Below are positions 28,851 through 42,681 of a stretch of 64,000 nt of DNA, in pieces. The position numbers and the translations under genes were made by a program. The stretch is from contig CASEVI010000005.1 in assembly GCA_949291375.1 (NCBI GenBank), forward strand, positions 1 to 64,000, written 5' to 3'. Position 1 is the first letter of the stretch. Each line of letters begins with the position of its first letter. The DNA is from an uncultured bacterium. Lineage in GTDB: Bacteria; Bacillota_I; Bacilli_A; RFN20; CAG-826. The notes beneath the pieces were generated by a model that was not told where the DNA came from, did not search any database, and saw only the letters and a list, made by a program, of their open reading frames with translations.

Positions 28851-31800
28851 ATGAAATTTAAAAAAATTTCTTTTATACTTTCTTTTTCATTTTTAGCTTT
28901 ACTTACATCAACTTCAATATCGTCTAAATATTCTACTTTTAATGATTTAGCTATTAAAGATAAAGAAGTAATTGTTTTATTTAATGATGGATATTCTTTA
29001 AATGATTTTAAAAATGAAATAAATGATTATAGTGGTGAATATATAATAAAAGATAGTTATAGTGGTTTAGTTAATGGAGTTTTATTAAATATTAACTATT
29101 CTTTTTTAGATATTTTACCTTCTTTAAAAAGTGTAGATAGTATTCATGAAAATAAAGCTTATTTTATAAATAGTAGTAATAGTAAAGAAAATGAATATTA
29201 TGATCCTTTAAAAATATTTACTACTCCATTAGAAAATAACTCTTTAAATAGAATGAACGTTCCTTCAACTTCTAAAGAAGGTGAAGGAACATTAATAGCT
29301 ATTTTAGATTCATCTTTTAATTTAGAACATGAATCTTTTAAAGATTTATCTTCTTCTATAGATATTAAATTAAGTGAAGAAAAAGTTAATTCCTTAGTGT
29401 CAAGTCTAGATGCAACTAATCAAGAAGATTTTTATTATAATCGTAAAATTCCTTTTTATCATGATTATGGAGGAACAATTACTAATTTAGATAATGAAAC
29501 TAGTAATGAAGATGATGATGTTTTTTCATTTAATAGTGTTCATGGAATGCATGTTTCTTCAATAGCTAGTGCTAATGGGGAATTTAAAGGAGTAGCTCCT
29601 TCTTCTCAACTAGCTTTTATGAAAGTTTTTGGAGATAGCGGAAATACTCAATATTGTTTTGATTCAATGGTTTTAAAAGCATTGAATGATGCTTATAAAA
29701 TTGGGGCAGATGTTGTTAATCTTTCTTTAGGAGCTGATTTAAATGAATTTGAAGATGAAAGTGCATCATATAAAGCAATTCAAAAGTTAGCTGATGAAGG
29801 AGTAATTGTTTCTTTAGCAGCAGGAAATGAAGGAAAAGCTACTTGGCAAAATAGTGGAGCTTATATGTATGATACTTTAGATACAATTGAAGAAGGTACT
29901 TTAGGTTCTTATTTAGGAAATAATGGTGGAGTAGGAGTAGCTAGTGCAAATTTAATCGATGATGATGAAGTTACTCCAGAACTTAGTGTTGAAGGAAACA
30001 CAATTAGTGGTAGAGATCAACTTAATGCTCGAGGAGATATTGATAATGATGGAATAAGCGATGATCCTGCTGCAATTATTCCTTTCACAACTTTAATTGA
30101 AGAAAATGAAGAAAGTGCAGCTTATGAATATGTTTTAGTTCCTGGAGTGGGTTCAATTAATGATATAGATCAAGAAAGCGGAGAAAATTTAGGAGATGAT
30201 TATCAAAATATTGATGTAAAAGGTAAAATTGCTGTTATAAAAAGAGGAAGCAATACTTTTTCAGAAAAAATTAAACACGCAAAAGAAAAAGGTGCTATTG
30301 CAGTAATTATTGCTAATCAAGATAATTTAGGTTCTTTAGGTTATTTTGATTTAACTAATTCAACTAAAGATGAATTAATTCCAGCTTATTCAATAAGTAG
30401 TGAAGAATATGAGATTTTAGAAAATGCTAAAAATAAAGTTTTAACAATTAGTAGAAATCAAATTTCAAGTTTCTCAAGTAATGGTACATTAGCTGATTTA
30501 TCTATGGCTATTGAAATTAGTGCTCCTGGGCAAAATATTGCTGGAGCGGTTTCTTTAAATTCTAGAAACCAAAAAAGTAATAATACTTATCAATATTTAA
30601 GCGGAACATCAATGGCTGCTCCGAATTTTTCAGGAGCAAGTGCTTTAATTTTAGGTGAAAATGATTTTTCTAACGAAGAAGAAAGAAAAGAATATCAAAC
30701 AACTTTAAAAGCAAGAGAAATGTCAACTGCTCAAGTTTTAAAACAATCAAATGGAGCAATGGTTTCTCCAAGAAGACAAGGTGCTGGATTAATTGATGTT
30801 AATAACGCAATTTCTTCATCTATTTATTTAACTGGAAGTAGTGAAAAGAGTGCTAAAGTTGAACTTAAAAATAATGAAGATATTTCTTCAGGGTTAATTG
30901 ATTTTGATATAACTATTCATAATGAAGAAAAAATAAAAGGAAGTTATAAAGTTACTCTATTAGTTCAAGTTCCTGAAACTAAATATATTGATGGAGAAAT
31001 GTCTCCAGAATTTAAAGATAAAAAATTTCAAACAATAAATGATGTTTTGGTTGATGAATATACATTTGATGTTTCTTTAAGTGGTGAAGAAGAACAAGTT
31101 GTAAATGTTAACTATGAACTTGAAGATTCAATTAAAGATGAATTAAATGATACTTTTGAAAATGGAACTTATATAGAAGGATATGTTTTATTTGAAAGTG
31201 AAAGTAGTTCTTTAAATGATCTTTCAATCCCTTATTTAGGTTTCTTTGGAGATTATTCAAAAGGCGATGCTGTTGAAGATTTTACTTTTGAAAGAGATAA
31301 TGAAAAAATTTATCAATCAGATGTTTTAAATAATTTAGCTGATGTTACTGGAATTAATAAACCAAATGCAAACTTTAATTCTTTAATTGGAGTTAGTGGA
31401 ACTGATTTTGAAAATTTTGATGTAAGCGATGTTTTATATAATAATGCTGACCCAGCTAAAATTTATACTCCTATAATTAGTGAATTTAATGAAAATGATG
31501 GTAAATACCATCTTTATGCTGGGGCAAAAGGAAGCGCTTCAACTTTATACATTCAACAATTTGTTAATAGAAGTGTTGATTCTAATACTATTACTTTAAC
31601 AAATAGTGAAGGTGAAGTAGTTTTAACTGACCATATGTTTAGTGCTCTTCATTCAACGGGCGATACAAACGATACATATTTATATAAAACAAAAGCTACG
31701 ACAAGTTTATTTAGTGAAGGAATTATTGCAGATAGAGCTTATACAATTATTCCATTAAAAGATGAGGAAAACGGTTATTATGAAGATGGAATTTATACTT

Positions 31801-32606
31801 TAAAATTTGAATATCATCTTTCTAGCGGTTATACCCAAGTTAAAGAATATGTTTTAGAGATTAATGAGACAGTTGAATCATTAGCAATTGATAATGCAGT
31901 TTTATCTGATGAAAGTTTAATTCTTTATTTCGATGAAAAAATGAGCCAAGTAACATTTGCTTCTAGAATTGCTAGTGAAGAAATTTTAGATAATAGAACT
32001 TATAAATATACTATTGACTTAACTAATTTAAGTTATGAAGAATTATTAACTAATCCATTTGTTTACATTTCCTCATTAAGATATTCATTTATAATTGGTA
32101 ATTTTAATAGTGAATTAAATGCAATTTTATTCTCTACTTCATCAGGAATTGGCAAAACTTTAGAACTACTTGAAGAAAAATATCCTGAAAAAGCAAACAC
32201 TTTTGATATCCGTATTGTTTTAAGAAATTTGGGTGGTATGCCAAGTGGATATAGTGGAGATGGCTACTTAGTTATTAACTTAGGTAACGGATATGAAAAT
32301 TCTATTTCTAAAGCTTATAGTAGTGATGGAAATAGCGAACTTAATTTAACTAAAGAAGGAAGTAGTGTTTTTATTGAGAATGTTCCCTCACATTTCTTAT
32401 TAGAAAAAGGTGAAAAATCATTTGTAATGTCTCCAACAATAATTTCTTTAATTGCTGCAATAGTTATTGTTTTAATTTTAATTGCAGTAATTATTCCTTT
32501 ATATTTACATTCAAAAAAGAAAAAAGATAAAAATATTAAAAAATACGATAAAGATGGTGTTGAAATCATTGATTTAACAGATGATGATAAAAATAATAGT
32601 AAATAA
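28851..32606 (+). CDS. Cell-surface subtilisin-like serine protease (lactocepin/C5a-peptidase type)
   Basis: 1251 residues. A signal peptide (Lys-rich start, hydrophobic ILSFSFLALLTSTS) exports it. The S8 catalytic triad is Asp153 (AILDSSFNLEHESF), His231 (VHGMHVSSIA) and Ser587 (SGTSMAAP). A protease-associated domain is inserted before the serine block (about 400-510, KGKIAVIKRGSNTFSEKI). Fn3-like beta regions follow to about 1180, then a single C-terminal membrane helix (about 1196-1218) and a Lys-rich tail, so it is anchored without an LPXTG motif. The Asp motif is DSS rather than DTG or DSG. The gene precedes the Opp operon, suggesting it generates peptides for import. Confidence 0.93.
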   Translation: MKFKKISFILSFSFLALLTSTSISSKYSTFNDLAIKDKEVIVLFNDGYSLNDFKNEINDYSGEYIIKDSYSGLVNGVLLNINYSFLDILPSLKSVDSIHENKAYFINSSNSKENEYYDPLKIFTTPLENNSLNRMNVPSTSKEGEGTLIAILDSSFNLEHESFKDLSSSIDIKLSEEKVNSLVSSLDATNQEDFYYNRKIPFYHDYGGTITNLDNETSNEDDDVFSFNSVHGMHVSSIASANGEFKGVAPSSQLAFMKVFGDSGNTQYCFDSMVLKALNDAYKIGADVVNLSLGADLNEFEDESASYKAIQKLADEGVIVSLAAGNEGKATWQNSGAYMYDTLDTIEEGTLGSYLGNNGGVGVASANLIDDDEVTPELSVEGNTISGRDQLNARGDIDNDGISDDPAAIIPFTTLIEENEESAAYEYVLVPGVGSINDIDQESGENLGDDYQNIDVKGKIAVIKRGSNTFSEKIKHAKEKGAIAVIIANQDNLGSLGYFDLTNSTKDELIPAYSISSEEYEILENAKNKVLTISRNQISSFSSNGTLADLSMAIEISAPGQNIAGAVSLNSRNQKSNNTYQYLSGTSMAAPNFSGASALILGENDFSNEEERKEYQTTLKAREMSTAQVLKQSNGAMVSPRRQGAGLIDVNNAISSSIYLTGSSEKSAKVELKNNEDISSGLIDFDITIHNEEKIKGSYKVTLLVQVPETKYIDGEMSPEFKDKKFQTINDVLVDEYTFDVSLSGEEEQVVNVNYELEDSIKDELNDTFENGTYIEGYVLFESESSSLNDLSIPYLGFFGDYSKGDAVEDFTFERDNEKIYQSDVLNNLADVTGINKPNANFNSLIGVSGTDFENFDVSDVLYNNADPAKIYTPIISEFNENDGKYHLYAGAKGSASTLYIQQFVNRSVDSNTITLTNSEGEVVLTDHMFSALHSTGDTNDTYLYKTKATTSLFSEGIIADRAYTIIPLKDEENGYYEDGIYTLKFEYHLSSGYTQVKEYVLEINETVESLAIDNAVLSDESLILYFDEKMSQVTFASRIASEEILDNRTYKYTIDLTNLSYEELLTNPFVYISSLRYSFIIGNFNSELNAILFSTSSGIGKTLELLEEKYPEKANTFDIRIVLRNLGGMPSGYSGDGYLVINLGNGYENSISKAYSSDGNSELNLTKEGSSVFIENVPSHFLLEKGEKSFVMSPTIISLIAAIVIVLILIAVIIPLYLHSKKKKDKNIKKYDKDGVEIIDLTDDDKNNSK

Positions 32607-32796: not shown

Positions 32797-33237
32797 ATGA
32801 ATGGGCAAAATAAAAGAAAAATAACAATATATCACTTCTTTAATATTTCAAACTTAATAATATTTTTAATTTGCATTGTTGCTGGAGGACTATTTTTTGT
32901 TGTTTATTCTTTGTTAAACTTTGAAGGATTTTCTATTTATAACATGATGAATGGATCTTTTGTAAGTGGTGCTTGTTTAGTCGGTTTTTCTTTATTATAT
33001 ATAGCTGGAAATTTTGGGACATTTGATGTTATAAGTGTTGGATTTTCGAATCTTTTTAGTGTCATAAAGAAAAATGGCTCAAAAAAATATGATGGAATTT
33101 ATGGATATGAACAAGTTCATAAAGAAAGACGATTATCCAATCGCTTTAAATTTTTCCCAATATTACTTTCAGGCATTTGTTGGCTAATAGTCTCCTTATC
33201 TTTTTATTTTGTTTGGCAGAACACATTCATCAACTAA
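32797..33237 (+). CDS. Three-helix membrane protein, DUF3899-like
   Basis: 146 residues with three hydrophobic segments (about 19-42, 55-75, 119-142) and a basic loop (SKKYDGIYGYEQVHKERRLSNR) between helices 2 and 3. The FGTFDVISVGFSNLF block and topology resemble DUF3899 proteins of Bacillota, which have no known function. No SD is visible; AT-rich leader. Located between the surface protease and the opp operon, though a link to peptide uptake is only positional. Confidence 0.55.
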   Translation: MNGQNKRKITIYHFFNISNLIIFLICIVAGGLFFVVYSLLNFEGFSIYNMMNGSFVSGACLVGFSLLYIAGNFGTFDVISVGFSNLFSVIKKNGSKKYDGIYGYEQVHKERRLSNRFKFFPILLSGICWLIVSLSFYFVWQNTFIN

Positions 33238-33394: not shown

Positions 33395-36133
33395 ATGGCA
33401 AAGAAAAAAAGTATATTATTTTCTGCTATTGCTCTCTCAACATTAGTTTTAGGTGCTGGAGCTGGTCTCACGTCTTGTGGACCTACTGAAGAACCTTTAT
33501 CTTATAAATGGGAAGGTAGTGCAGATACTACAAGTTCAAAAGTTGAACTCGATTTAGATCCATCATTAGTCGTTAGTGCGAAAGATTCAAAATATTTTGC
33601 ACCATACGTTGTTGATGTAAATAGTGATGGTTCCTATAGATTTATTTCTAGTGGTGGCGATACCTTAATGGAAAGCGGTGAAAGCGCAAAATTACTCGCT
33701 TATTGGGTACCAGAAAATTTCACATTATTTGCAAGTGTTAGAAATGCTGATGATGGTTCACCAGTTAATGGTGTAGTTAGTGCTGATGGTACAGTCACCG
33801 CTCCATCAGTTAGTGAAAAAACTAACTTAATTATTACATTATCAGCTGTTAGTAACGAAGCAATCGTTAATCCAGTTGGCGGTGGGGAAGCAACAGTCAG
33901 ACATTTAAAAGAAGAAGTTAATTTAACAGTTGTTCCTTCAGGTTCTATCGCTAAAAACATGGACGCTGAATATAGAGTTTTAAGTGAAAAAGAAAGAAAT
34001 GAACTTACAGCTGAATTAGAAACATATGCTATGGAACATGGCTTAACTGGTATTAGATTCCAATCAAATGGTGGTCATGCTGTTTATAGAGAAAGATTTA
34101 CAACTCCATTATTAGAAGCTGATAATTACATTCCTTCATATGGTTGGGGTACTACTCAATATGGTCAAATTACTGAACCTTTAGCTGCTGAAACAAATGA
34201 AGCATATAAGATGTATTATCATAGTATTCTTTCACCAAATAGTGAACTTGGTACAATTAACTATCTTGATAGTGATCAAGCTGCTGTTAACGATTTATAC
34301 TCATATATGTCTTCTTCTTTCTGGGGTAAAGCTTTAAACGAAGAATATACTGCAACTGAAGATGTCGGTGTTTTATCTAGAGCTGAACCAGAAGCAGTTA
34401 ATCCAGATGAAGATGGAATTGCTACAAAATGGAAAGTTAAAGTTTGGGTCGGTGGCGATGCTGATGATGAAGAACATGGTGTCTTAGCAGGGCTCAATTT
34501 CAGAACAAGTTCTGAAAAATATTCGGAATTTGACAATAGACCAATTACTCTTGAAGACTATGTCACACCAATTAAATTATTAGCTACTGGTGCTATTGGT
34601 TGGTATAGAGGTGATGAATCTGCAACTTCTTCACAAGGTAAAACTAAACTTGTTGGTTTCTCAAAATATTATCAAGATACAGCTAAAGCAACAACAATCG
34701 GTACAACCGAAGACTTCTTATCAAAAGTTAATGTTGAATTAGATCATGAAGATAATTCACTTACATTTGAATTTGAACAAGGATTTGACCAAGACTTTGC
34801 TAAATATTATCTTGATCAATTATGGGCAAACCCAATGTGTGAAGACTTTGTGGCTGCTATTGGTGATGGTAATGTCATTGAAGGTGCTAAAGTTTATGGT
34901 ACTTCTCCAGAAGGTGAAACACCTGCTGACACATCATTATCAGTTGGACCATATATGCTTGAAAAATATAACCCTCAAGTTGAAATTGCATTCAAGAAAA
35001 ACGATACATGGCCAGCTAAATTATCAACTGATAACCATAATAGAACTTTATACCAAATCCCTGGTTTCTATATGAGAGTTGATACTGCAGTTTTAAATGA
35101 TAGAGAAGAAGCTATGAAACAATTTGAAGCAGGCTATACTGATTCAGTTTCAATTTCAACAGATACTCAATATGAAAAATATGCTACAGATCCAAGATTA
35201 AAGACAACATTACCAGACGGTACATTCGGTACAACATTTAATAGAATGGACAAAGCATTATGGGATTCATACTTTGGCCCAGGCGGAGTTTGGTATGAAG
35301 CAATGAACCCAGATGGATCATTAACTAAAGATAAAGAAGTTAATCCAATTTTATCAAATGATAATTACTTCAAAGCTCTTAACTTAGGATTTGATCGTGC
35401 AGCTTATGCTGAAGCAGAACATGATGGTATCTATTATGAATATTTCCAACCAGGACAAAAAGTCAATCCTGTTACAAATACATTCTATAATGATACTGAT
35501 GAACACAAGGCTGCTATGAAAGAAGTTTATGGTGATTCGTTCGATGATCCAGCAAATTCTCCACAATTCGCTGTTCAATATATGCAAGATGCAATTATTG
35601 AAGAATTAGATGCAGGTCATATTGATTTAGGAACTACTGATAAACCAACTGATTTCGGATTCTCATCATCAATTCTTGCTTCAGATAACTACTATAGAAT
35701 CATTAACTACTATAATGAATATATCGGTAACGTCTTTAATGAAGCAGTCAGTTCATATGTTGATGCTGATGGAAACAACCCATTATTAAGTGGTGGAAAA
35801 CAATTGGTTTCATTCACTATTACACCTGATGAATATTCAGCTGATGGTTCTGGTCAAAACGCACTCTTAAGCGATGTTTGGTCCGGTGTTTCGAATTCAC
35901 AATCAGTCTTCTCAATTAGTGGTAACTCACTTGACTCGGTTGACTACGTTGATATCTTATCTTGTAACAAGATTGCAGGTTTCGAATTATCATTCGCTGT
36001 TGATACTAACATTCCTTCAGAATATCTTGAATGGGATGGCAAGTATTGGTCATTTGAATCCCTCTGGTGGGCAGCATCAGGTGGCGGAGTTACTATTGAC
36101 GAAAATGGTAGAGGAAGTAGTTCAGCTGCTTAA
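33395..36133 (+). CDS. oppA: OppA-like peptide-binding lipoprotein (family 5 SBP)
   Basis: 912 residues from ATG 33395, which has GGAGG 7 nt upstream. A lipoprotein signal ends in LTSC with Cys28 as lipid anchor. The mature part begins with an extra beta-rich region (about 35-165), then shows family-5 peptide-binding features: TSVGPYMLEKYNPQVEIAFKKN-like strand (SVGPYMLEKY), LNLGFDRAAYAE and the C-terminal lobe. At 912 residues it is far longer than a typical OppA (about 540). It captures peptides outside the membrane for OppBCDF. First gene of the operon; a large stem-loop follows it. C-ending codons are more frequent, fitting high expression. Confidence 0.88.
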   Translation: MAKKKSILFSAIALSTLVLGAGAGLTSCGPTEEPLSYKWEGSADTTSSKVELDLDPSLVVSAKDSKYFAPYVVDVNSDGSYRFISSGGDTLMESGESAKLLAYWVPENFTLFASVRNADDGSPVNGVVSADGTVTAPSVSEKTNLIITLSAVSNEAIVNPVGGGEATVRHLKEEVNLTVVPSGSIAKNMDAEYRVLSEKERNELTAELETYAMEHGLTGIRFQSNGGHAVYRERFTTPLLEADNYIPSYGWGTTQYGQITEPLAAETNEAYKMYYHSILSPNSELGTINYLDSDQAAVNDLYSYMSSSFWGKALNEEYTATEDVGVLSRAEPEAVNPDEDGIATKWKVKVWVGGDADDEEHGVLAGLNFRTSSEKYSEFDNRPITLEDYVTPIKLLATGAIGWYRGDESATSSQGKTKLVGFSKYYQDTAKATTIGTTEDFLSKVNVELDHEDNSLTFEFEQGFDQDFAKYYLDQLWANPMCEDFVAAIGDGNVIEGAKVYGTSPEGETPADTSLSVGPYMLEKYNPQVEIAFKKNDTWPAKLSTDNHNRTLYQIPGFYMRVDTAVLNDREEAMKQFEAGYTDSVSISTDTQYEKYATDPRLKTTLPDGTFGTTFNRMDKALWDSYFGPGGVWYEAMNPDGSLTKDKEVNPILSNDNYFKALNLGFDRAAYAEAEHDGIYYEYFQPGQKVNPVTNTFYNDTDEHKAAMKEVYGDSFDDPANSPQFAVQYMQDAIIEELDAGHIDLGTTDKPTDFGFSSSILASDNYYRIINYYNEYIGNVFNEAVSSYVDADGNNPLLSGGKQLVSFTITPDEYSADGSGQNALLSDVWSGVSNSQSVFSISGNSLDSVDYVDILSCNKIAGFELSFAVDTNIPSEYLEWDGKYWSFESLWWAASGGGVTIDENGRGSSSAA

Positions 36134-36221: not shown

Positions 36222-37262
36222 ATGACAAAATATGTTATAAAAAGAATTTTGTTTGTTTGCCTTACTTGCTTTATCGTCTTATCTCTAACTTATATTTTGA
36301 TTAACTGTCTTGAGATGCCTACTCCAGTTTCAACAACTCCGGGACAAGTTATCGCATATTTTAGAAATCAAGTTGATAAAGGTTTCGTACTTGAATTTAC
36401 CTCTCCTCAAGACGGTCTTGGTAAACTTCTTAGACAAGTTACCGGCGGTGATGGTATTACTTACTATTATTATGCTAGACCAGTTATGGATAGATATTTT
36501 TCATGGCTTTCAAATGTTATTCTAAGATGGGATTGGGGAGTTTCAACAAACTTCCAAATTAATTCCCCATGTATGGATATTATTTTATCCAGATTACCAG
36601 TTACAATTAGCATTAATATTATTAGTGTTATCGTTTCCGTTCCTCTTGGAATCGGTTTTGGCGTTATTTGCGCTTTAAAGAAGAATTCGATTTTTGATAA
36701 CGTTGCTCAAGTTGTTATCATCGCTTTAATTGCTCTTCCAAGTTTCGTTTTGGTATCATATCTTATTTTAATTGCATATAACTCAAATGGTGCAATTCCA
36801 CCTTTCTGGCCACAATCGACATCTCCTACAATTGTAAAAGTTGCTGGATATGTTGTTCCGGTTACTGCTTTATCAGTCGGTTCAATTGCTGGTTATGCAA
36901 GATTTGTAAGAGCAGAATTATGCGAAGTTTTATCTAGTGAATATCTTTTACTTGCTAGAACTAAAGGTTTAACAAGAGGTCAAGCAATTTTAAGACATGC
37001 ATTTAGAAATTCAATGGTTCCAGTCTTGCCTAGTGTTGTTTCTGAATTTATCGCTATTTTAGGCGGTTCCATGATTTTAGAGAATTTATATCAAATTCCA
37101 GGTGTTGGAAGACTCTATATTGCGGCTTTCCAACAAAATGACTACAACTTATTAATGACAGATATGGCTTTTTATACTATTATCGGTTTATTAGCTTCAA
37201 TTGTTGTTGACTTAAGTTATGGATTTATCGATCCACGTATTAGAATGGGGGCAAAGAAGTAG
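36222..37262 (+). CDS. oppB: Oligopeptide ABC permease OppB
   Basis: 346 residues. Helix 1 (about 8-30) is followed by an extended extracytoplasmic loop (about 35-95, rich in Tyr and Phe), then the binding-protein-dependent permease core. The EAA loop that contacts the ATPases is EYLLLARTKGLTRGQAILRHAF. VDLSYGFIDPRIRMG is the classic OppB/DppB C-terminus. It forms the membrane pore with OppC. SD AAAGGAG is 6 nt before ATG. OppC begins right after its stop. Confidence 0.94.
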   Translation: MTKYVIKRILFVCLTCFIVLSLTYILINCLEMPTPVSTTPGQVIAYFRNQVDKGFVLEFTSPQDGLGKLLRQVTGGDGITYYYYARPVMDRYFSWLSNVILRWDWGVSTNFQINSPCMDIILSRLPVTISINIISVIVSVPLGIGFGVICALKKNSIFDNVAQVVIIALIALPSFVLVSYLILIAYNSNGAIPPFWPQSTSPTIVKVAGYVVPVTALSVGSIAGYARFVRAELCEVLSSEYLLLARTKGLTRGQAILRHAFRNSMVPVLPSVVSEFIAILGGSMILENLYQIPGVGRLYIAAFQQNDYNLLMTDMAFYTIIGLLASIVVDLSYGFIDPRIRMGAKK

Positions 37263-37263
37263 T

Positions 37264-39255
37264 ATGATTAAAGAAGAAAAGTTTTTGCTCAATAAAAATA
37301 CAGGCGAAGAGATTGATATTAAGCAATCCGATTTTGAGTTTGTTCAACAAGATTCTAAAATTCATGATACAAAATTCAAAAGCAAAGCTACAACTTTCTT
37401 TAAAGATTCTATTAAAAGATTTTTAAAGTCAAAATCTGCTACTGCTGGCGGAATTATTGTTGGAGTTTTAGTACTTTTAGCAATTGTTGTACCTTTCTGT
37501 ACTCCTAACGTTGGTGCTTTTGATGTTGATAGAAACAATGTTGGTGGTCAAACAATTGAAAAGAATATTCAACCAAAATTATTCCCTTCTGGAACAGGAT
37601 TCTGGGATGGAACAATTAGAAAAACTGGGGTTTTATTTGATGAATCTACTCAAAGACCTCAAGGATATAGAGAAGGTGTATTCTCTGAATTAGAAACATA
37701 TACAGGTGTTGTTAATGCTTCTAATGCTTTAGGTAAAGGTGGATATGTTTGTGTTTTCTGTCCAGATGGAACAGTTAATGGAAATATGTATTCTCCTTAT
37801 ATTGATTTTGATTTAGAAAATGTTGAATATACTATTACTTATTCCACTTTAGATGAAGTTTATCCAGGATATGTCACAAGTCCATATCGTTTATTACTTC
37901 AAGATTCAGAAGGTAATAAATACACTCTTTCTGAATATAGTAATGATTTAAAAGGCGAAGTTAATATTAATGAGGTTTTAGGGAATGTTACCTTAAATGA
38001 AGAAGGAAAATTTAATGCTAGATTTATGTTTGAAATTCAAGCTACTTCTTCAGGTAGAGGTTCAATCATTTTAGATGATGTTATTATTTCTTCTAATTCA
38101 ACTGATAGTGCTGAAAAAGAATTATTAGATTCAATTTCATTTACTGAAGGTAATGAATTATTACTTAGAACAGCTGAAAGCGGAAATGCTTGGACATCAA
38201 CTTCAGGTAGAAATGCTTATAAAGTTAATTATATTTATTGTAATTTCGTTTACGATCAATATGAAGATGTTTATGGAAATCAAGAAATGACAATTTCTTC
38301 AACATCAATTGTTGGTTATCAAGCTCAAGGCGAAATTCAAATTAATTTATCAAACGATCACTCTGCAGCAACATCAGATAAAGATGAACTCGCTCAAAGA
38401 TTTAAAATTTTAGATTTAGATAATGGATTAATTGTCGAAGTTATTGAACAAATCGGTGATGCAACTTATAATCCAAGTAGAAATAGATGGGATGGTTATA
38501 CCTTAAGATGTATTATTAGAGGCTATAGATATTATGGCTATGATTCAATGCCAATGTTTATTTTTGGTACTAATAGTAATAAGAGAGATTATTGTAAATT
38601 AATCTTCACATCTATGAGATTCTCTTTCCTTCTTGCCATTGGTGTTAGTGCCGTTAACATTATTTTTGGTCTTGTTTGGGGATCAATTTCTGGATATTTC
38701 GGTGGTTGGACCGATATTATTATGGAAAGAATTGTTGAAATTGTCGGTTCTTTACCAACAACGGTTGTTATTACTCTTTGTATTATGTATGGTAACCAAT
38801 TTGATTGGGGTTCGGCTAGTGATGTTATTGCATTGATGGTCGCATTATTCTTAACCGGTTGGATGGGCGTTGCTGCTAGAACAAGAACGCAATTCTATAG
38901 ATTTAAGGGCAGAGAATATGTTTTAGCTTCTAGAACTTTAGGTGCTAAAGATAGTCGATTAATCTTTAGACATATTCTTCCTAACTCCATGGGAACAATT
39001 ATTACTGGTTCAATTCTTATGATTCCAAGTGTTATTTATACTGAAGCATCTATTGCTTATTTAGGATTAGGTCTTTCAGGACAAAATATGTTTGGTGTTA
39101 TCTTAAGTGAAGCAAACTCCAATTATATGGGAGAAACAACATACATTTTAATAATTCCAACTGTTTTAATGGCTTTACTCCTTATTTCATTTAACCTCTT
39201 TGGTAATGGATTAAGAGATGCCTTTAACCCACAACTTAAAGGAGGAGAACAATAA
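37264..39255 (+). CDS. oppC: Oligopeptide ABC permease OppC with a giant extracytoplasmic insertion
   Basis: 663 residues from ATG 37264 (an earlier ATG at 37219 overlaps oppB and has no homology). Normal OppC is about 300 residues. Helix 1 is at about 60-80; residues 85-425 form a large Ser/Thr/Asn- and aromatic-rich beta-type domain; then the family motif FGTNSNKRD (usual FGTDxxGRD) at 434-442 and five membrane helices. The EAA loop is EYVLASRTLGAKDSRLIFRH. The insertion sits outside the membrane and could contact OppA or peptides. The core identity is certain; the function of the insertion is unknown. Confidence 0.9.
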   Translation: MIKEEKFLLNKNTGEEIDIKQSDFEFVQQDSKIHDTKFKSKATTFFKDSIKRFLKSKSATAGGIIVGVLVLLAIVVPFCTPNVGAFDVDRNNVGGQTIEKNIQPKLFPSGTGFWDGTIRKTGVLFDESTQRPQGYREGVFSELETYTGVVNASNALGKGGYVCVFCPDGTVNGNMYSPYIDFDLENVEYTITYSTLDEVYPGYVTSPYRLLLQDSEGNKYTLSEYSNDLKGEVNINEVLGNVTLNEEGKFNARFMFEIQATSSGRGSIILDDVIISSNSTDSAEKELLDSISFTEGNELLLRTAESGNAWTSTSGRNAYKVNYIYCNFVYDQYEDVYGNQEMTISSTSIVGYQAQGEIQINLSNDHSAATSDKDELAQRFKILDLDNGLIVEVIEQIGDATYNPSRNRWDGYTLRCIIRGYRYYGYDSMPMFIFGTNSNKRDYCKLIFTSMRFSFLLAIGVSAVNIIFGLVWGSISGYFGGWTDIIMERIVEIVGSLPTTVVITLCIMYGNQFDWGSASDVIALMVALFLTGWMGVAARTRTQFYRFKGREYVLASRTLGAKDSRLIFRHILPNSMGTIITGSILMIPSVIYTEASIAYLGLGLSGQNMFGVILSEANSNYMGETTYILIIPTVLMALLLISFNLFGNGLRDAFNPQLKGGEQ

Positions 39256-39257
39256 TT

Positions 39258-41285
39258 ATGGCAAATGAAAATAACACAATTATTCGTGATAAAGATCACC
39301 GTGTTCTTCAAGTCAAAGACCTTGTTGTCTCCTTTAAGACTGATAGAGGTATAGTTCATGCTGTTAGAGGTGTTAGTTTTGATCTTTATAAAGGTGAAAC
39401 ACTTTGTATAGTTGGAGAATCAGGTAGTGGAAAATCTGTTACTAATAAAGCGATTATTGGTATTTCTGCTGCAAACGCCATAATTGAACAAGGTTCAATT
39501 ATGTATGAAGGTGAAGACTTAGTTAGAGTTAGTGAAGAAGAATTCCATCGTATTAGAGGACATAAAATTGGAATGATCTTCCAAGACCCATTAAGTGCTT
39601 TAAACCCTGTTATGAAGGTTGGAAAACAAATTATTGAAGCAACCATGATTAACAAAAATATTTTAAAGAAACATTACAATGAATTAATTTCAAAAGAACA
39701 CATTAAATTTAACAATGAAATTACCAATTTTTTATATGATCAAGATAAAATAGAAAAAGAAGTTAATAAAATTGAAAATTTGTTAAAATCTTATAAAAAA
39801 GCTTCATTTGCATTAGAAAAAAATCAAAATGAAGAGAAAAAAGGTGATTTAGAAACTACTAAAGCAAAAGTTTTAGAAGATGTTAAAAGTTTAATCAACG
39901 ATACAAAAATATTTATTAATACTGAAGTTGAAAGATTAAACGAACGTGTTGGCCATTATGAAAGAAAATTGGCTAAAAAAGATGAATTTAGTGATCTTAA
40001 AAAGGAAATTGCTGAAGTTGAACTTGCTACAACAACCGCTTTAAGAGATTTATATTTAGCTCATCATAACGAAGCAGATAAAATTGATTCAGAAGATGTT
40101 AGTTTCTTAACATTTAGAATTAATTTCTTAAAAGAATATGAAAAAATGCTTAAAAATAACCATAAAAAACTTCATCCTCTTTTAAAGAAAGATTTAAATG
40201 TTAGAAAAAAAGAAGCCAAAGTTGAAAATAAAGCTTATGCTTTAGATTTAAAAAAAGAACATGAAGAAAAATTAACTTCTTTAAATGAAGAATTAAAAGG
40301 AGTAGAAGAAAAAATTTCTGCTTTTGAAGCTTCTTTAAATGAAGAAGATAGAAATCATGTCCATGAAATCTTATCATCAAATAAGAAAAAACTTATTAAA
40401 AAACAAAAATTAGAGCTTAAAAATAGAGAAGTTAACGTTTCAAAAACTCATAAAGATACATCGTTAGAAATAGAAAAACTTCCTTTTGATGAATTGCAAA
40501 AACTTTATGATGATATTAAAAATATTCAAACTCGTATAAGTGAAGAAAAACGTCGTTACATTAATCAAACTAAAATTACAAAAGCCGAAGCAAAAAGAAT
40601 GGCTCTTGAAGTCATGAAAGAAGTTGGTATTCCACTTCCAGAAAGAAGATTTAAACAATATCCATTTGAATTCTCAGGTGGTATGAGACAAAGAATCGTT
40701 ATTGCTATTGCTTTAACAGCTAATCCAGAAATTTTAATTTGTGATGAGCCAACAACCGCTCTTGACGTTACTATTCAAGCTCAAATTCTTGAACTTATTA
40801 ATAAGTTAAAAAGAGAAAGACATTTAAGTTGTATCTTTATTACTCACGACTTAGGTGTTGTTGCTAACATGGCTGATAGAGTCGCTGTTATGTATGCAGG
40901 TAAGATTGTCGAATACGGACTTTCAAATGAAGTATTCTTTGATCCACGTCATCCATATACATGGGCACTTCTTTCTTCAGTTCCTGATGTTGATAGTAAA
41001 GAAAAACTTGAAGCTATTCCAGGAACACCTCCAGATATGCTTTATCCACCTGAAGGTGATGCCTTTGCTTTAAGAAGTAAATACGCTATGGCTATTGATT
41101 TTAAATATCAACCACCTTATTTTAAGGTAACTGATACACATTATGCTGCTACTTGGTTACTTTATCCAGGTGCTCCAAAAGTTGAAATGCCTAAAATTGT
41201 TAAAACCCGTATCGAAAATTCTTTAAAAGAAGAAGAAGAAAGAATTAAAAAAGAAAAGAAAAAGGAGGAGTCAATTCATGAATAA
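39258..41285 (+). CDS. oppD: Oligopeptide ABC ATPase OppD with a coiled-coil insertion
   Basis: 675 residues, twice the usual 330-350. Walker A GESGSGKS at 53-60 and Q-loop FQDP at 108-111 are normal. Then about 310 extra residues (about 135-440), dominated by Lys/Glu-rich heptad-like helices, are inserted before the signature SGGMRQR (473 onward). Walker B ends at Asp496-Glu497 in ICDEPTTALD, and the C-terminal peptide-ATPase region HPYTWALLSSVPDVD follows. It powers transport with OppF. Start set by AAAGGAGG about 12 nt upstream; 2-nt gap after oppC and 8-nt overlap with oppF. Confidence 0.93.
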   Translation: MANENNTIIRDKDHRVLQVKDLVVSFKTDRGIVHAVRGVSFDLYKGETLCIVGESGSGKSVTNKAIIGISAANAIIEQGSIMYEGEDLVRVSEEEFHRIRGHKIGMIFQDPLSALNPVMKVGKQIIEATMINKNILKKHYNELISKEHIKFNNEITNFLYDQDKIEKEVNKIENLLKSYKKASFALEKNQNEEKKGDLETTKAKVLEDVKSLINDTKIFINTEVERLNERVGHYERKLAKKDEFSDLKKEIAEVELATTTALRDLYLAHHNEADKIDSEDVSFLTFRINFLKEYEKMLKNNHKKLHPLLKKDLNVRKKEAKVENKAYALDLKKEHEEKLTSLNEELKGVEEKISAFEASLNEEDRNHVHEILSSNKKKLIKKQKLELKNREVNVSKTHKDTSLEIEKLPFDELQKLYDDIKNIQTRISEEKRRYINQTKITKAEAKRMALEVMKEVGIPLPERRFKQYPFEFSGGMRQRIVIAIALTANPEILICDEPTTALDVTIQAQILELINKLKRERHLSCIFITHDLGVVANMADRVAVMYAGKIVEYGLSNEVFFDPRHPYTWALLSSVPDVDSKEKLEAIPGTPPDMLYPPEGDAFALRSKYAMAIDFKYQPPYFKVTDTHYAATWLLYPGAPKVEMPKIVKTRIENSLKEEEERIKKEKKKEESIHE

Positions 41286-42681
41286 CGAAAAAGAAATTCG
41301 CCAAGAAGAAGAATTAGAATCCTCTAAAAAGAAAATGCTTGCAAAAGATGAAACTCTTTATCAAGAAATGCAAGAAACTAATGTAAATATTAGTAAAAAT
41401 GATGCCGCTGATGATTTACATGAACATTATCCACCATCTGATGATGAACTTAAAAATGTTACGACAGAAGATAAAGTTATTAAAGATATTCGTTCAAAAT
41501 GTAAATTTAAACAAGAATATGTTGATAACAATATTATTCTTTCAGTTAATCATTTAAAACAATATTTCTTCTTTGGCAGTGGACCTGGAAGATATAAACT
41601 TAAAGCAGTTCATGATGTTTCTTTCCAAGTTAAGGAAGGTGAATGTTTTGGGCTCGTTGGTGAATCTGGTTGTGGTAAAACAACTACTGGACGTTCAATT
41701 ATTAGACTTTATAATATTACTTCTGGATCTATTTATTATAAAGGTCATAGAATCGGCGCAGGTTCTAGATGGAACGAAAAGGAAATTAAATATACCAAAA
41801 TTAGATTTAATGAAGAAAAGAAAAAACTTGCTGAAGCATTAAAAAATAATGAAATCAGCAAGGAAGAACATGATAAAAAGTTAAAGGAAGCTAAAGAATA
41901 TTGCGATAATGTTTGTAAAGTTCAAAAAGCTAAAATTAAGCAAATTAAACATGATAATAATCATGTAGATCCTAAATTAATGAGAGAAATTCAAATGATC
42001 TTCCAAGATCCTGTTGATTCTCTTGATCCAAGAATGACTGTTGAAACAATCATTTCTGAAGGTTTACAGATTCAAGGATTTAGAAATAAAGCTGATAACC
42101 ACCGTAGAGTTGTTGAAGCATTAGAAAGAGTCGGCTTAATTGAAGATTATGCAAACCGTTATCCACATGAATTCTCTGGTGGTCAAAGACAAAGAATTGG
42201 TATTGCTAGAGCTTTAGTTATGAATCCAAAATTCTTAATTTGTGATGAACCTATTTCTGCTCTTGACGTTTCTATTCGTGCTCAAATCATTAATCTTTTA
42301 AACGATTTAAAAGACGAATATAAATTATCGATGCTTTTTATTGCTCACGATTTGTCAGTTGTTAAATATTTCTGTGATCGTATTGCTGTTATGTATTTTG
42401 GTGAAATTGTTGAACTCGCAACAAGTGATGAACTTTTTAAACATCCACTTCATCCATATACAAAATCACTTTTATCAGCAATTCCTAAACCAAACCCATT
42501 AACTGAGAAAAATAGAATAAGAATTACCTATAATCCTCAAAAAGAACATGATTATAGTGTTGAAAAACCTAAATTTGTAGAAATTTTACCAGGCCACTTT
42601 ATTTTAGCTAACTCAGTTGAAGTTGAAAAATATAAGAAAGAAATTGTTGAACTTGATAAAAAAGCTGATAGTGAACAATAA
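41278..42681 (+). CDS. oppF: Oligopeptide ABC ATPase OppF with N-terminal extension and insertion
   Basis: 467 residues against about 320 normally. An acidic N-terminal extension (1-85) precedes the ATPase. Walker A GESGCGKTT is at 128-136, a helical charged insertion at about 162-232 precedes FQDPVDSLDPRM, the signature FSGGQRQR is at 299 onward, then ICDEPISALDVSIRAQ, AHDLSVVKYFCDR and HPYTKSLLSAIPKPNP, all diagnostic of OppF. Its start overlaps the end of oppD; AAAGGAGG precedes it by 9 nt. Last gene of the operon. Confidence 0.93.
   Translation: MNNEKEIRQEEELESSKKKMLAKDETLYQEMQETNVNISKNDAADDLHEHYPPSDDELKNVTTEDKVIKDIRSKCKFKQEYVDNNIILSVNHLKQYFFFGSGPGRYKLKAVHDVSFQVKEGECFGLVGESGCGKTTTGRSIIRLYNITSGSIYYKGHRIGAGSRWNEKEIKYTKIRFNEEKKKLAEALKNNEISKEEHDKKLKEAKEYCDNVCKVQKAKIKQIKHDNNHVDPKLMREIQMIFQDPVDSLDPRMTVETIISEGLQIQGFRNKADNHRRVVEALERVGLIEDYANRYPHEFSGGQRQRIGIARALVMNPKFLICDEPISALDVSIRAQIINLLNDLKDEYKLSMLFIAHDLSVVKYFCDRIAVMYFGEIVELATSDELFKHPLHPYTKSLLSAIPKPNPLTEKNRIRITYNPQKEHDYSVEKPKFVEILPGHFILANSVEVEKYKKEIVELDKKADSEQ

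Follow-up and report, generated by a model that had tools for sequence, protein, structure and literature searches.

The opp Operon and Its Neighbors

The window, a stretch of 64,000 nucleotides of a gut bacterium on contig CASEVI010000005.1 (GCA_949291375.1), contains an operon with the gene order OppA, OppB, OppC, OppD, OppF (Table 1), which is kept in homologous loci with enough sequence. The oppC start codon (ATG) lies one base past the oppB stop codon. Searches of the genome (1.29 Mb, 97% complete) retrieved a single full-length OppC and a single family-5 binding protein, which is the operon's own OppA.

OppA is an unusually large lipoprotein that combines a diverged family-5 core with a long, lineage-dependent N-terminal extension. 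The OppAs of operons whose OppC carries the insert described below are mostly 850–1050 aa in length; because large OppAs (743–941 aa) are also encoded in operons with a short OppC, OppA size is not specific to the insert. The ATPase domain of OppD is expanded by about 280 charged, coiled-coil-like residues, and the best-scoring model for the protein is the Mollicutes OppD MMSYN1_0167. Five other loci (L049, L072, L077, L095, and L093) encode OppD-like ORFs of 1194–1365 aa with no separate OppF found, and these are possibly OppD-OppF fusions.

Upstream of oppA is a gene for a subtilisin-like S8 protease. In many relatives, a gene for a DUF3899 membrane protein (32797–33237; 1–127 in L214) is situated between the protease gene and oppA; such a gene also adjoins an opp operon in Enterococcus faecalis. 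Among the present locus and four others (L185, L188, L189, and L190), the S8 proteases are 83–95% identical, while the neighboring OppAs are only 27–29% identical, a pattern suggesting that the protease gene is exchanged at one fixed site.

Table 1. Features of the opp locus and of the OppC protein, with positions in the window
Feature	Positions	Strand	Description and basis
S8 subtilisin-like protease	28851..32606	+	Conserved genus neighbor; Pfam, synteny
oppA	33395..36133	+	Lipoprotein binding protein, about 912 aa; sole SBP_bac_5 protein in genome; lipobox LTSCG
oppB	36222..37262	+	346 aa; without comparable insert
oppC with extracytoplasmic insert	37264..39255	+	Uninterrupted frame, 663-aa translation; Pfam OppC_N + BPD_transp_1; sole full-length OppC in genome
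OppC transmembrane helix 1	37432..37500	+	Residues 57-79; AlphaFold2 secondary structure, hydropathy
Ingoing stem of insert	37567..37614	+	Residues 102-117, IQPKLFPSGTGFWDGT; conservation in 87 sequences, motif in short Gram-positive OppC
Jelly-roll beta-sandwich half of insert	37615..38103	+	Residues 118-280; model pLDDT about 97, partial Foldseek matches
Second half of insert, mixed alpha/beta	38104..38511	+	Residues 281-416; model pLDDT about 96, conserved residues
Outgoing stem of insert, to membrane	38512..38565	+	Residues 417-434; conserved Y421, G425, Y426, P430
FGTNSNKRD, counterpart of FGTDxxGRD before helix 2	38563..38589	+	Residues 434-442; translation, alignment
OppC transmembrane helices 2-6	38590..39240	+	BPD_transp_1 at 469-659; PDB OppC/DppC alignment, AlphaFold2
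oppD	39258..41285	+	ATPase, 675 aa; long charged insert within ABC_tran
oppF	41278..42681	+	ATPase, 467 aa

An Extra Domain between Helices 1 and 2 of OppC

The original prediction described OppC as helix 1, a long stretch free of membrane helices, the sequence FGTNSNKRD, and the remaining helices, a layout confirmed by translation, hydropathy, AlphaFold2, and alignment to Opp3C. Pfam recognizes OppC_N at residues 44–82 (E = 1.1e-8) and BPD_transp_1 at 469–659 (E = 4.9e-26). Both hydropathy and AlphaFold2 place no membrane helix between residues 80 and 442 and the remaining helices from 443, and OppC and DppC chains in the PDB align to the protein from residue 432 onward. FGTNSNKRD, immediately ahead of helix 2, is a degenerate form of FGTDxxGRD. 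Alignment to the NCBIfam Opp3C model (NF045475) covers model positions 3–59 and 104–328, with 44 model positions set against about 346 OppC residues in between, and the score of 225 bits is far under the equivalog cutoff of 450. A length near 300 residues and a short TM1–TM2 loop are thus absent from this OppC, whose 663 residues include a loop of about 346, and they are likewise absent from many OppCs of class Bacilli.

Because residues 102–117 form a stem that is also present in short OppCs, the extra part starts at residue 118, and about 317 residues (118–434) are without a counterpart in short Gram-positive OppCs. The insert is a real extra domain of about 320 residues; the figure of about 340 initially given for it was somewhat larger than the unmatched part. 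Its proposed outward orientation is supported by homology, because the TM1–TM2 region of DppC is periplasmic, on the outer face, in the solved DppABCDF complex (PMC12136057).

AlphaFold2 modeling of the insert alone, from an alignment of 87 sequences, yielded a pLDDT of 94.2 and a pTM of 0.82, and the domain is confidently predicted to fold independently, an outcome that the original prediction had named as support. When the model was compared with the PDB by Foldseek, the top match was Bacillus InhA2 (E = 1.6e-5, TMq 0.26), with further matches to xanthanase, a CBM-bearing xylanase, phloem lectin, MAM/RPTPmu, and Eph receptor ligand-binding domains, all with TMq of at most 0.27. Since the match table gives no aligned ranges, these beta-sandwich matches were assigned to the first half of the insert from strand pattern and lengths. 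The second half (281–416) displayed no clear solved counterpart in the same search. The jelly-roll or Ig-like fold originally suggested is partly supported for the jelly-roll half. Neither the MalF-P2 fold nor a tandem Ig-like ectodomain of the PepT1/PepT2 type was among the 50 best Foldseek matches in the PDB. A viral structure library returned weak beta-sandwich matches only, and querying the PDB with the insert sequence returned chance matches only. Across the 87 members, no Pfam family covers the insert, and five families match one member each with weak E-values.

Conservation is unevenly distributed over the domain. The mean frequency of the top residue in the 87 sequences is 0.88 in the ingoing stem, the most conserved part, 0.58 in the outgoing stem, 0.43 in the second half, and 0.39 in the jelly-roll half, the least conserved part. 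Conserved residues of the second half comprise W310, C326, D331, Y333, G338, and G356, and the few in the jelly-roll half (G159, G160, Y189, and Y208) look structural.

Distribution and Loop-Length Series

Orthologues in related genomes, named in the original prediction as a source of support, are plentiful. Of 25 other genomes from the genus, 24 encode an insert-bearing OppC; the one lacking it is 70% complete, and a contig end truncates one of the OppC copies. Candidatus Onthovivens merdipullorum is among these genomes, which places the window in or near the genus Candidatus Onthovivens. The architecture is uninterrupted in 30 relatives. When about 85,000 species genomes were scanned with two insert patterns, 135 loci were confirmed and 80 of them kept, part of these on the same contigs as in the genus set. 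All 80 encode OppC (624–788 aa where full length) and, according to the names in their records, belong to Bacilli, Acholeplasmatales, Anaeroplasma, and Erysipelotrichaceae, along with scattered Lachnospiraceae, Oscillospiraceae, and other Clostridia. In a phylum-wide sample, 40 of 392 genomes matched the insert, densely in the source bacterium's own family and at low density elsewhere; a Lachnospiraceae family sample, for instance, had two matches in 150 genomes, and one of these was the sample center. A frameshift, misassembly, or accidental fusion can be dismissed for practical purposes, because about a hundred genomes, each assembled separately, share the same open architecture. The literature that was searched contained no description of the OppC insert, which is apparently an undescribed and widespread domain within a well-known importer type rather than a new kind of system.

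Short Gram-positive OppCs already possess a loop at this site, consisting of LPPRhPxLExhGhFDGT, about 18 residues, and FGTDxxGRD. In Bacillus badius and Enterococcus faecalis, helix 1 is followed by a stem such as LPPKVPILEQVGWLGFDG or LPPRIPGLESVNGLNGK, 19–24 residues, FGTD or LGTD, and GRD, while the OppC studied here displays IQPKLFPSGTGFWDGT, about 317 residues, and FGTNSNKRD. The stem motif is also recognized in relatives from the class, where the distance from stem to FGTD is 17–18, 54–57, 187, about 300, 348, and up to about 585–590 residues. Open frames of the class that match the Opp3C profile are as long as 1,149 aa. By these sequence comparisons, the insert arose by growth inside a loop already present in ordinary Gram-positive OppC. 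The expectation that OppC has only a short loop here holds for the E. coli, mycobacterial, and lactococcal proteins but not for the class Bacilli as a whole.

The approximately 300-residue loops of 630–650-aa OppCs from the class are homologous to the insert (HHalign 99.4%, 317 columns, 18% identity), and the insert profile matches several of these proteins with HMMER E-values of about 1e-13. In two longer OppCs of 917 and 933 aa (L206 and L207), the profile matches in more than one stretch, suggesting that the domain is repeated or duplicated. With 497-aa and 632-aa class relatives as queries, named plasmid records yielded no match covering their inserts. In another search, a haloarchaeal plasmid hit with apparently greater query coverage proved to be only a 395-aa permease.

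In the same bacterial order, operons with a 315–335-aa OppC encode an OppB of either 395–410 aa or 518–648 aa, and in the larger form helices 1 and 2 are about 270–350 residues apart. Five loci (L115, L118, L119, L128, and L130) combine a short OppC with an OppB insert of 270–350 residues where the scoop loop is located. Homology between the OppB and OppC inserts was ruled out (HHalign probability 0.2%). Both operon kinds occur on one contig in genome G024.

Possible Roles and Comparison with Known Systems

Covariation of the insert was examined in 53 non-redundant operons, with OppB, the OppC membrane part, and OppD as controls. Distances of the insert and OppA were correlated (partial Mantel r = 0.37, p = 0.0005; with ranks, r = 0.26, p = 0.001), while insert versus OppD and OppA versus OppD gave null results, as did insert versus OppB once OppA was included. 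No other parts evolve as fast as OppA and the insert, the mean distance being 1.54 for the insert versus 0.51 for the OppC membrane part. The covariation is modest and, as a sign of functional contact, suggestive only, given that common selection in the extracellular setting could account for it.

The helix 1–2 loops lie on the outer side, where DppB and DppC of DppABCDF are capped by the binding protein and a DppB loop enters its cleft (PMC12136057). An extra importer-permease domain that contacts the binding protein is known from MalF-P2 (PMC3150292). Because the insert belongs to an outer-face loop and would lie beside the docked OppA, with which it is co-encoded and covaries, we favor a role in docking and orienting. 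The two-part domain in the OppC helix 1–2 loop of this OppABCDF peptide importer would stand beside the mouth of the translocation pathway and offer OppA a surface on which to dock and be oriented, comparable to the P2 domain of MalF. The conserved stem would serve as a fixed base, and the variable jelly-roll half would be the part fitting each lineage's OppA. The unrelated OppB insert in other operons of the order suggests that one raised platform per transporter, in OppC or OppB, suffices. We hold this account tentatively and put its chances at somewhat below even. Of the two functions first proposed relative to the binding protein, assistance is plausible and corresponds to the role favored here. 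Substitution for OppA finds no support, since the sole family-5 binding protein is encoded just upstream and OppA is present in every insert-bearing locus with enough upstream sequence.

The insert could instead be a passive spacer or shield for the permease mouth, or could raise docked OppA over surface polymers, in either case with no specific contacts. Loop lengths that range from 18 to about 590 residues across relatives, and from 230 to 491 in the genus/order set, would be compatible with such a function, as would the fast sequence change noted above. However, almost no variation is seen in the stems and at several core residues, and the domain is retained across Bacilli and Clostridia, and we consider a contact-free function unlikely.

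Tethering of a secreted or surface protease, for instance the neighboring subtilisin, would free peptides beside the importer. The inserted two-domain ectodomain of PepT1/PepT2 binds trypsin and has been proposed to play an analogous role (PMC4597091), and growth of S. aureus is fed via Opp3 by protease-released peptides (PMC6495380). An S8 gene lies directly upstream of the opp operon in eight of 11 checked relatives with enough flank, but some insert-bearing relatives have no adjacent S8 gene. Furthermore, in nine genomes with the upstream subtilisin, divergence of the insert is unrelated to that of the protease (r = −0.06, versus 0.96 for insert and OppA), since nearly identical proteases adjoin very different Opp systems; proteases that are 83–95% identical, for example, stand beside inserts that are 26–33% identical. 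These data speak against the earlier suggestion that the domain binds the subtilisin, despite the latter's being a conserved neighbor in the genus, and make a protease tether rather improbable.

We consider it equally improbable that the jelly-roll half is a lectin-like or carbohydrate-binding-like module fixing the importer to wall, capsule, mucin, or another surface ligand. While the best fold matches listed above are of the kind expected for such a module, their TM-scores are low, conservation is lowest in the jelly-roll half, whose few conserved residues look structural, and none of the 87 members matches a Pfam carbohydrate-binding family. Still more speculative, and in our view a slim prospect, is a Bacilli-wide port at the helix 1–2 loop for unrelated docking towers in OppC or OppB, with the tower in this lineage linking OppA to a surface protease, so that peptides pass directly from cleavage to import.

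Opp importers are textbook systems, and every solved one encountered in this analysis has a short OppC loop. Many gut Bacilli, and Clostridia in some cases, possess a confidently folded, uncurated domain at the importer entrance, which suggests that much of the class uses a different docking step in peptide import. The graded loop lengths and the swap of carrier between OppB and OppC provide a ready comparative system for platform function.

Among known structures, the InhA2, CBM, and MAM-type beta-sandwiches partly resemble the jelly-roll half in fold, but with no sequence match, low TM-scores, and the second half unmatched. MalF P2 is inserted between helices 3 and 4 of MalF, unlike the OppC insert, which is located between helices 1 and 2. 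In MalFGK2, P2 likewise adds an extracytoplasmic domain to one permease subunit of a type I importer working with a binding protein (PMC3150292), but it belongs to another transporter family, and no fold match to the insert was found. PepT1/PepT2 similarly display an ectodomain between transmembrane helices of a peptide transporter (PMC4597091), the difference being that they are MFS proteins with tandem Ig-like domains that bind trypsin; no sequence or fold relation to the insert was found. The uncharacterized 630–650-aa OppCs of class Bacilli have homologous loop domains but share only about 18% identity with the insert, and the GTGFWDGT variant of the stem is a feature of the OppC lineage studied here. 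Gram-positive Opp3C/OppC (NF045475; OppC_N + BPD_transp_1) possesses the same membrane part, the same place between OppB and OppD, and the same stem motif before the loop and FGT..(GR)D after it, but its stem-to-FGT loop comprises about 18 residues, compared with about 317 in the OppC described here.
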